A stretch of 64,000 nt of DNA from assembly GCA_947460235.1 (NCBI GenBank), contig CANHGK010000014.1:1-64000 (forward strand). The letters are read 5' to 3'. Under the pieces are notes generated by a model. That model had not been told where the DNA came from and ran no database searches. It saw nothing but the letters and a program-made list of their open reading frames with translations. Source of the DNA: Paenibacillaceae bacterium. GTDB lineage: Bacteria; Bacillota; Bacilli; Paenibacillales; CANHGK01. Within the stretch, counting starts at the first letter, position 1; every line of letters begins with the position of its first letter. Shown piece by piece: positions 6,162 through 55,471 of the stretch. Both the position numbers and the translations under genes were made by a program.

Positions 6162-6262
6162 TAATATTAAAAAAATATCGAAAATTTTAATAGAAATTGG
6201 TAATATAATAATATAGTTGTGCCGATATTCTCTATTAATGTACCCAAAAAGGTGTGATATCT

Positions 6263-6685
6263 GTGAGTAATGAACGGCGGCAGTTTAAACGTTATCGACC
6301 CAATTTTATTATGAAGGCAATGATGATCCCGTATCTTGAATTACCAACAGGTAGACATCAGTTAGATCCGCTTGAAGGTCTTGTTCTGGATTACTCCGAT
6401 GGCGGAGTAAAAGTACATATTAACAACAATACCGGCAGAGATTTAACGAAATCGATTTGGTTAAATCAAGAATTATACGTGATTTTGCAGCTATCAAATG
6501 AATCGTATTACACATTAAAAGGTAAAGTTATGCGCTTTTCAGGTCATCCTCGTGACGAACAATTCGATTTTAGTATTATGTTTGTTGAAGAAAAGGATGC
6601 AACAAGTTTATTGCCGTTACAAGATATTGATGTGATTCGCGAACAACTTAGAAAAGTAAGCGTTGATGCAGAAGAAATTGTATAA
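6263..6685 (+). CDS. PilZ-domain protein (predicted c-di-GMP receptor)
   Basis: A 140-residue protein made almost entirely of one PilZ domain. It carries both c-di-GMP signature motifs: RxxxR in R6-QFK-R10 and D/NxSxxG in D43-YSDGG-48. No membrane segment or extra output domain is visible, so it may act on a partner protein. GTG 6263 is 10 nt after AAAGG and preferred over GTG 6254, which overlaps that site. It lies between tRNA-Arg and an ABC exporter operon but is cut off from the latter by a terminator. The target process is unknown; motility or polysaccharide control is typical of the family. Confidence 0.8.
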   Translation: MSNERRQFKRYRPNFIMKAMMIPYLELPTGRHQLDPLEGLVLDYSDGGVKVHINNNTGRDLTKSIWLNQELYVILQLSNESYYTLKGKVMRFSGHPRDEQFDFSIMFVEEKDATSLLPLQDIDVIREQLRKVSVDAEEIV

Positions 6686-10856: not shown

Positions 10857-10906
10857 AAAAAATCACATTCGCGGGGTGTAAATTACACGCCTTGGATGTG
10901 ATTTTT
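10857..10906. terminator. Bidirectional terminator between the DUF4340 gene and tadA
   Basis: AAAATCACAT and ATGTGATTTT form the outer stem, with an inner GTGTA/TACAC stem. A-tract and T-tract flanks let it work for both converging genes. The right arm lies in the 3' end of tadA. Confidence 0.8.
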
Positions 10907-11365
10907 CTTTTTGTTCGCACGAAGCTGTTTGAAAAAATGAGTTAACAATGCGCTGCATTGTTCATGTAGAATTCCTTCTGTAACTTGTACGCGATGATTA
11001 AATCGCTGCTCATTCAAAATCGGAATTAAACTATGCACGCAGCCGGCTTTTGGATCACGTGCGCCATATACAACTCGATCGACACGAGACTGAATAAGTG
11101 CACCTGCGCACATCGGACAGGGCTCTAAAGTTACATATAGCGTACATCCGCTTAAGCGCCACGCTTGATTAAATATGCTTGCTTCTCGCATTGCGATCAT
11201 CTCTGCATGTGCAAGTGGATCAAATGTGGTTTCCCTAAGGTTATGTCCACGCCCAATGATCCAATCGTTATACACAACAACAGCACCGATCGGCACTTCG
11301 CCAATCCGTGCTGCCTTATTTGCTTCTAAAATCGCTTCAGTCATCCACAACTCATCTGAGATCAA
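10883..11365 (-). CDS. tadA: tRNA-specific adenosine deaminase
   Basis: Converts A34 to inosine in tRNA-Arg(ACG). The cytidine-deaminase fold is shown by the zinc/active-site motif HAE (in DPLAHAEMIAMREAS) and PCPMC (in LEPCPMCAGAL). The end of the protein is Lys/Asn rich. TTG 11365 has AGGTGG about 8 nt upstream. A GTG 12 nt further upstream overlaps that site. An internal ATG at codon 8 of this form also exists, so the start is not certain. The 5' end lies within a cluster of DnaA-box-like sequences. Confidence 0.92.
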   Translation of the reverse strand: MISDELWMTEAILEANKAARIGEVPIGAVVVYNDWIIGRGHNLRETTFDPLAHAEMIAMREASIFNQAWRLSGCTLYVTLEPCPMCAGALIQSRVDRVVYGARDPKAGCVHSLIPILNEQRFNHRVQVTEGILHEQCSALLTHFFKQLRANKKKNHIQGV

Positions 11366-11436
11366 CAACCAAACCACCTACTTGTCCACAGAACGCACAT
11401 TCGTTATGAACAACTTGTGCATAAATCTGTGGATAA
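11341..11436. promoter_or_regulatory. Cluster of DnaA-box-like sequences
   Basis: Against the 9-mer TTATNCACA there are two perfect boxes on the minus strand (TTATGCACA, 11416-11424; TTATCCACA, 11428-11436), spaced 12 bp. Three one-mismatch boxes lie on the plus strand (TCATCCACA 11341-11349; TTGTCCACA 11382-11390; TTATGAACA 11404-11412). They cover the tadA 5' end and the gap to the next gene. Such clusters can titrate DnaA or control promoters. The window is close to the origin by synteny, but no dnaA/dnaN is present here. Confidence 0.5.
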
Positions 11437-11466
11437 ACTGTATTGACATGTTAATAAGGAGCTGAA

Positions 11467-12045
11467 TTACTCAGCAATTTCATCGGAACCGATTAAACGT
11501 AATTGCTCACGTAAAATCAAACTACGTAATGTTCGAACATCTTCCTTGCCAAGTTCGCCAAAAGACGCACCATAACGTGTATCGCCATCTTCTTGTTCTT
11601 TCCGATGTTGAATTTGAAATGTTATCGAGAACGATTGGCCGCTCTCAGTTTGGAATGTCATTTGATAATTATTTAAAACTTCCATTGTACTGTTACCACA
11701 ACTAAATCCAATGCCGCGATGGCTAAAATCATGAATTCGTGCAGGCACCGGAGGTAACGTTGAACGAATGGATACCAAAGCATTTAAGTGTGTACCAATG
11801 CGAACTGTTCTTCTTTGATCGGAAAAAACATCTTTTTGTTTGTAAGGTGTTAATAAATAAGCAAAAGAACCGTTAATTGCAAGGACACGCAAGTAAACTT
11901 CTTTCCCATAAAAAATACACAATAAATAATCGCCAACATTCACTCGATGAGCCTCGGCAATTGTGACTTGCATTAATTCTCCATTCAAATCGACGATGGA
12001 AGCCAGCTCGAACGATTCGTTGATTTTAATTTGTAATGTTTCCAT
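11467..12045 (-). CDS. PilZ-domain protein (YpfB/YcgR-like layout)
   Basis: A 192-residue cytosolic protein. The first about 85 residues resemble a YcgR-type N-terminal domain. A PilZ domain follows with RxxxR in the segment QRRTVR and DxSxxG in IHDFSHRG, then the usual YGASF strand near the end. In Bacillus, YpfA proteins of this layout brake the flagellar motor when c-di-GMP is high; that role is an inference here. The ATG chosen is preceded by GGGG about 8 nt upstream. The frame stays open for 57 more codons, but those residues look non-coding and cross the candidate promoter. No terminator separates it from tadA, so the two may be co-transcribed. Confidence 0.75.
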   Translation of the reverse strand: METLQIKINESFELASIVDLNGELMQVTIAEAHRVNVGDYLLCIFYGKEVYLRVLAINGSFAYLLTPYKQKDVFSDQRRTVRIGTHLNALVSIRSTLPPVPARIHDFSHRGIGFSCGNSTMEVLNNYQMTFQTESGQSFSITFQIQHRKEQEDGDTRYGASFGELGKEDVRTLRSLILREQLRLIGSDEIAE

Positions 12046-33678: not shown

Positions 33679-33689
33679 ATTAAAGACGA

Positions 33690-33963
33690 TGAACAGGAAA
33701 GTATATTCGGGACACTTTTTCAGAGAGAGCACCCTTGGCTGTAAGGTGTTTATCGTGGTCGAATGGAAGTGCACCTGGGAGTTGCGGGATTGAAGCGGCG
33801 ATTCAAGAATATAGTCGTCAGTTAGATTCCGACGAATCACCTGCGTTAAAGGTTACGAGAGGGATGCGTACGACCGGACGACCGGAGTGTGTGTCATTCA
33901 AGCAGAGTGGAACCGCGCAAATAGCGTCTCTGCAGCATGATGCTGCAGAGACGCTATTTTTGT
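33690..33963 (+). promoter_or_regulatory. T-box riboswitch, predicted tRNA-Cys
   Basis: This covers most of the 326-nt gap between gltX and cysE. Stem I marks include AGTA near 33700, the GAGAGAG/TTGGCTG distal region and GAATGGAAG before the specifier TGC (33770-33772, Cys). The T-box AGAGTGGAACCGCG is at 33904-33917. A perfect 19-bp terminator stem (33919-33937 with 33941-33959) and T run follow. Uncharged tRNA-Cys should favour the antiterminator and switch on cysE-cysS. Confidence 0.9.
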
Positions 33964-55023: not shown

Positions 55024-55058
55024 CTTGTCTGTTGGTCTGTTTTTTAGCAATGATGCGA

Positions 55059-55471
<413 letters not shown>

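Follow-up and report, generated by a model that had tools for sequence, protein, structure and literature searches.

In a 64,000-nt stretch of DNA from a Paenibacillaceae bacterium (hereafter the window), a group of DnaA boxes lies directly in front of tadA, which raises the question of whether these boxes serve replication or the control of the gene next to them. The gene itself (10883–11377, minus strand) was assigned to tRNA adenosine(34) deaminase by NCBIfam model NF008113, above cut-off, and likely starts at the TTG at 11368, as indicated by a preceding AGGTGG (11374–11379). Upstream and on the same strand follow a gene for a PilZ-domain protein (11467–12045) and then ychF, and where the PilZ gene ends, upstream of the DnaA boxes, a terminator-like hairpin (11461–11475, minus strand) is located. 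A second, different PilZ-domain gene was found at 6254–6685, placing both within 6 kb. Rfam matches in the window comprised a T-box leader (33680–33934) and a ribosomal protein leader of the S10-Clostridia type (55042–55142).

For scoring of the window as well as the genome, TTATNCACA was used as the perfect DnaA box 9-mer. An earlier note on this DNA had reported two perfect boxes on the minus strand with starts 12 bp apart and three one-mismatch copies on the plus strand, all of which were recovered. The perfect ones are box 1 (TTATCCACA, 11428–11436), a member of the direct pair kept in the order Paenibacillales, and box 2 (TTATGCACA, 11416–11424), running in the same direction 12 bp after it. 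The one-mismatch copies begin at 11404, 11382, and 11341, namely the reverse box 3 (TTATGAACA, 11404–11412), which follows box 2 after another 12 bp and overlaps the predicted −35 of tadA, a box overlapping the predicted −10 (TTGTCCACA, 11382–11390), which is inconstant in the elements of relatives, and a third one (TCATCCACA, 11341–11349). Two further boxes had been missed, i.e., a one-mismatch box upstream of box 1 (TTATTAACA, 11449–11457, minus strand) and a perfect one within tadA (11268–11276, plus strand). The description of the cluster as intergenic applies to most of its boxes, but not to 11341–11349, which is coding and covers Trp-Met codons of the tadA frame.

Density was scored per 100-bp stretch, with two points for a perfect box and one for a box with one mismatch. 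The highest-scoring stretch in the window reached 7, compared with a maximum of 4 in 300 first-order shuffles, none of which (0/300) attained the observed density; clustering beyond chance, as had been proposed, was thus verified, and the site represents a denser-than-chance DnaA-box cluster outside oriC. The window as a whole revealed no enrichment (5 perfect boxes vs 3.2 expected). Genome-wide, TTATNCACA occurs 122 times in 2.72 Mb (reversed control, 66), and since the word is not rare, it is grouping and conservation that count rather than the word itself. The commonness of these words, with 122 perfect boxes in the genome, is also what speaks for a cluster arisen by chance in this genome, an explanation that we consider practically negligible: the shuffles do not match the density, and the exact composite described below recurs in front of tadA in 36 of 61 genomes, which already refutes it.

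Density elsewhere in the genome was assessed by pattern searches together with about 241 kb of sequence, consisting of the window and of chosen and arbitrary stretches; positions were obtained for 100 of the 122 perfect boxes, and smaller contigs might hide another cluster. In the approximately 241 kb examined, only one place was denser than the tadA site (C10:21526–21577). It contains three perfect boxes in 30 bp as well as one-mismatch boxes, is flanked by a transglutaminase-like gene (judged by its look) and a gene for a long repeat protein, and does not contain the LexA box pattern; it is a candidate titration site. Two perfect DnaA boxes in opposite orientations were also seen at C5:111403–111422, where open reading frames indicate genes for a hybrid sensor kinase and an ABC-F type ATPase on the two sides.

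The reading of the locus as a cluster of DnaA boxes proved right as far as the boxes are concerned, but it had missed an adjoining site of LexA type. This predicted LexA (SOS) box, CGAATGTGCGTTCT, is located at 11390–11403 on the minus strand, with the core CGAATGTGCGTTC at 11391–11403. As a same-clade control, we used the regions upstream of recA and lexA. In 27/29 genomes of the order, the recA upstream region carried CGAAT-N4-GTTCG with T at position 5, and the lexA upstream regions displayed arrays of CGAAC-N4-GTTTG or GTTCT; in the genome of the window, the best boxes were CGAACATATATTCT for recA and CGAACTAATGTTTG for lexA. The box at tadA therefore resembles the recA form of related genomes, a Gram-positive LexA/SOS operator, from which the copy in the window deviates by one mismatch, the loss of the final G. 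On this sequence match, the CGAAT-N4-GTTCG word at tadA is a LexA box. To our knowledge, tadA is not among the described SOS genes.

Conservation in relatives, the test that the earlier note itself had named, turned out strongly positive. We compared 72 tadA loci, derived from 60 genomes of the order plus named Paenibacillus and Cohnella loci (P. naphthalenovorans is counted twice, as G033 matches it in sequence), all oriented on the tadA strand before counting. A direct box pair with at most two mismatches was present in 68 of the 72 loci, while the same DNA read backwards always gave at least four mismatches. Within 300 bp upstream of tadA, at least two perfect boxes were found in 58/72 loci and at least three boxes, including those with one mismatch, in 64/72, and in relatives extra DnaA boxes often flank the core of the element. 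When the loci were aligned by their best direct pair, the consensus TTATCCACA-N3-TTATnCACA-N3-TGTTAACAA-N0..3-CGAATnnnnGTTCG emerged. In 65/68 loci, its third 9-mer differs from a reverse DnaA box by no more than two mismatches (background about 0.5%), which makes the whole an array of box, box, and reverse box in 12-bp steps, with box 3 usually in the weak form TTGTTAACA at the loci of the order. The LexA word CGAAT-RNNY-GTTCG follows 11–15 bp after the pair with at most one mismatch in 59 of the 68 pair-bearing loci, 43 of them exact. Its fixed inner positions hold about 1.4–1.9 bits, and columns downstream mostly hold less than 0.6. Among 69 tadA loci from other groups (Bacillus, Oceanobacillus, Lysinibacillus, Brevibacillus, Clostridia, and others), two perfect boxes never occurred (0/69) and a LexA-like word occurred in six.

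The whole element, pair and LexA box alike, is missing from four of 61 genomes (G002, G004, G007, and G009), apparently by separate losses, which makes these genomes natural tests of its role. Others keep DnaA boxes without the LexA box, namely G015, G020, G041, and genus g9. In the g9 loci (G008, G016, G021, and G025), the DnaA pair was kept and the usual LexA box is gone, and G016 looks as though its operator had moved, with a GAAC-AAAC-GTTC sitting on the reverse DnaA box. In a tree based on DnaA and TadA, with one outgroup and moderate support, the genome of the window branches first and carries the full element, so that the element probably originated at the base of the Paenibacillales and was later lost in the four genomes without it. 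The window's genome represents a deep, sparsely sampled lineage, with no genome of the same family in the comparison.

A search of 61 whole genomes with the composite pattern TTATNCACA-N10..17-GAAYRNNYGTTC resulted in 38 matches, and the reversed control in one. Of these matches, 36 lie directly upstream of tadA and on its strand, in 36 genomes, and the genome of the window has a single one, at 11391–11424. The two remaining matches were located upstream of sda-like genes, homologues of which in other families are assigned to Pfam PF08970. When the search was extended to 399 genomes of the class, matches outside the order fell on sda promoters in eight genomes and on a few single cases; tadA was not among the out-of-order matches examined. 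Thus, a blind pattern recovers tadA within the order along with sda, a known target of DnaA and LexA, and by its conserved adjoining sites the tadA region would belong to the promoters co-controlled by both proteins. A 36-residue sda query, run without a positive control, gave no match in the window's genome.

The genes on both sides of tadA change across the order while the element stays, which shows that it belongs to tadA. Ownership by a neighbour was rejected, as PilZ, ychF, and the other neighbours are variable; moreover, the PilZ gene runs in the same direction as tadA in the window's genome, and a divergent gene is therefore no constant partner. A downstream operon, such as dnaX-recR in B. 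subtilis, was likewise rejected as a target, since no gene is constantly found 3' of tadA in the order.

Promoter positions were scored on the 30 loci that share the most frequent gap. In these, the hexamer in front of the LexA box revealed a mean match of 4.5/6 to TTGACA and was TTAACA in most cases; for the hexamer located 18 bp beyond it, the mean match to TATAAT was 3.3/6. Shifted positions scored below this placement. In the window, the predicted −35 is TTCATA (11405–11410, minus strand), which belongs to a conserved column block and reads TTAACA in most relatives, and the aligned position of the −10 holds GACAAG (11381–11386, minus strand), a weak and unconvincing hexamer here that is better in relatives. 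With these positions, the LexA box would fall into the spacer, the reverse box over the −35, and the direct pair just upstream. The overlap of the LexA box with the predicted promoter is clear across the order; the window's genome has a weak −10, and the implied transcription start there coincides with the ribosome-binding site. The expectation that the boxes cover the place of a tadA promoter agrees with the predicted −35 and −10 at the boxes.

Taken as a control region of tadA, the site would act as a double switch of DnaA and LexA that responds to replication and to the SOS response, a reading to which we assign a probability of about 0.72. From the arrangement of the sites, we infer that LexA would occupy the operator in the −35/−10 spacer and keep tadA expression low until DNA damage sets off the SOS response. 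DnaA, bound to an array of two direct boxes upstream of the −35 and a reverse box over it in 12-bp steps, would alter promoter activity with the replication state. The geometry suggests that DnaA is anchored by boxes 1 and 2 and that the weaker box 3 is filled at high levels of active DnaA, leading to repression; activation by DnaA, the mode described for sda, is almost equally likely. The earlier note had left the choice between titration and promoter control unmade. Promoter control is favoured by the fixed spacing from the boxes to the LexA box and to the predicted −35 and −10, by the constant orientation towards tadA, and by the changing neighbours.

Among the explanations that attach the boxes to replication, an origin or second origin at tadA was rejected, in agreement with the earlier note, which had held oriC to be less likely: the site does not adjoin dnaA-dnaN, and dnaA (C2:41961–43280), with its own boxes on both sides (C2:41572–43385), is located on a different contig from the window. 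An oriC-proximal DnaA titration site as in B. subtilis, with tadA as a mere neighbour, appears unlikely, though several features fit it. datA consists of boxes with an IHF site, and its deletion advances initiation. In well-joined genomes carrying the pair, the element is 28–106 kb away from dnaA, the core is often flanked by additional boxes, and clusters analogous to datA have been described for B. subtilis, as cited in PMC5742627. However, a titration site could do without a fixed spacing to LexA box and −35 and without a single orientation towards tadA, both of which are kept, and a binding sink has no need for DnaA and LexA sites to stay joined. According to the listed strands, tadA is oriented head-on to replication.

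No DARS is known to us from Firmicutes, and an element of this kind, which would recharge DnaA with ATP and overlap an SOS promoter as DARS1 does at uvrB in E. coli, is less probable still. Its three boxes with one opposed to the others match the orientation of the DARS core, in which box I is opposite to boxes II and III (PMC5742627), the 12-bp step between the two like-oriented boxes is that of DARS1 and DARS2, and DARS1 overlaps the LexA-controlled promoter uvrBp3 (PMC6015884). The remaining core step measures 12 bp at tadA vs 14 bp in both E. coli elements, box 3 is mostly the weak TTGTTAACA, and membership in the DARS class was rejected on this core spacing (12 and 12 instead of 14 and 12 bp between starts), measured against the real E. 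coli sites. That the two kinds of sites serve separate purposes, the LexA box making tadA an SOS gene and the DnaA boxes serving a neighbour or replication, is the least probable of these functional alternatives; it would explain the genomes with boxes and no LexA box (G015, G020, G041, and genus g9), but the gap of 11–15 bp is fixed order-wide and the neighbours are variable.

Should binding and induction be borne out, DNA replication and damage would influence decoding through the DnaA-LexA switch at tadA. TadA makes inosine in tRNA and edits mRNAs in several bacteria. A further step, by which stress shifts TadA via DnaA and LexA and thereby both the inosine of tRNA-Arg and the recoding of mRNAs by A-to-I editing, forming an arm of the SOS response at the level of translation throughout this order of spore-formers, is a tentative and rather doubtful proposal. 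Regulation of bacterial A-to-I editing is described as unclear in recent work (PMC13170351), and a confirmed switch at this locus would open its control to direct testing, for which one promoter and a standard DNA-damage assay suffice. A search of the accessible literature returned no paper tying tadA to LexA or DnaA boxes. Double control by DnaA and LexA is already known; what we could not find described is tadA as its target, this architecture, and its extent across a whole order.

Compared with known systems, the oriC-proximal clusters of B. subtilis share with the tadA site dense boxes outside oriC near the origin, whereas at tadA a LexA box and a predicted promoter adjoin the cluster. Among the B. 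subtilis DnaA targets named in the main text of PMC4447404, neither tadA nor yaaJ appears. DnaA is described as an activator and LexA as a repressor of sda (PMC11925247, PMC12112137), and the sda promoter in Bacillus and relatives displays, like the tadA element, a reverse DnaA box directly before the LexA box. Its two boxes are convergent and 15 bp apart, unlike the direct pair in 12-bp steps at tadA, and its product is a sporulation checkpoint protein instead of a tRNA deaminase. In several families, we observed sda promoters of the form TTATNCACA-N6-TGTGGATAA, followed after 1 bp by a GAACG-like LexA box, a form conserved between families that offers a benchmark for promoters under both DnaA and LexA. 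The nearest tested analogue of the tadA element is the uvrB region of E. coli, whose LexA recognises a different sequence. There, DnaA and LexA both act, with one LexA box in the −35/−10 spacer and a second one overlapping DARS1 (PMC6015884). Both loci have a group of three boxes with one reversed; the E. coli region belongs to another gene and phylum and has core spacings of 14 and 12 bp vs 12 and 12 bp at tadA. Checkpoint and repair genes such as sda and uvrB are among the known targets of promoters under the control of DnaA and LexA, while the gene behind the element of the Paenibacillales encodes a tRNA deaminase.
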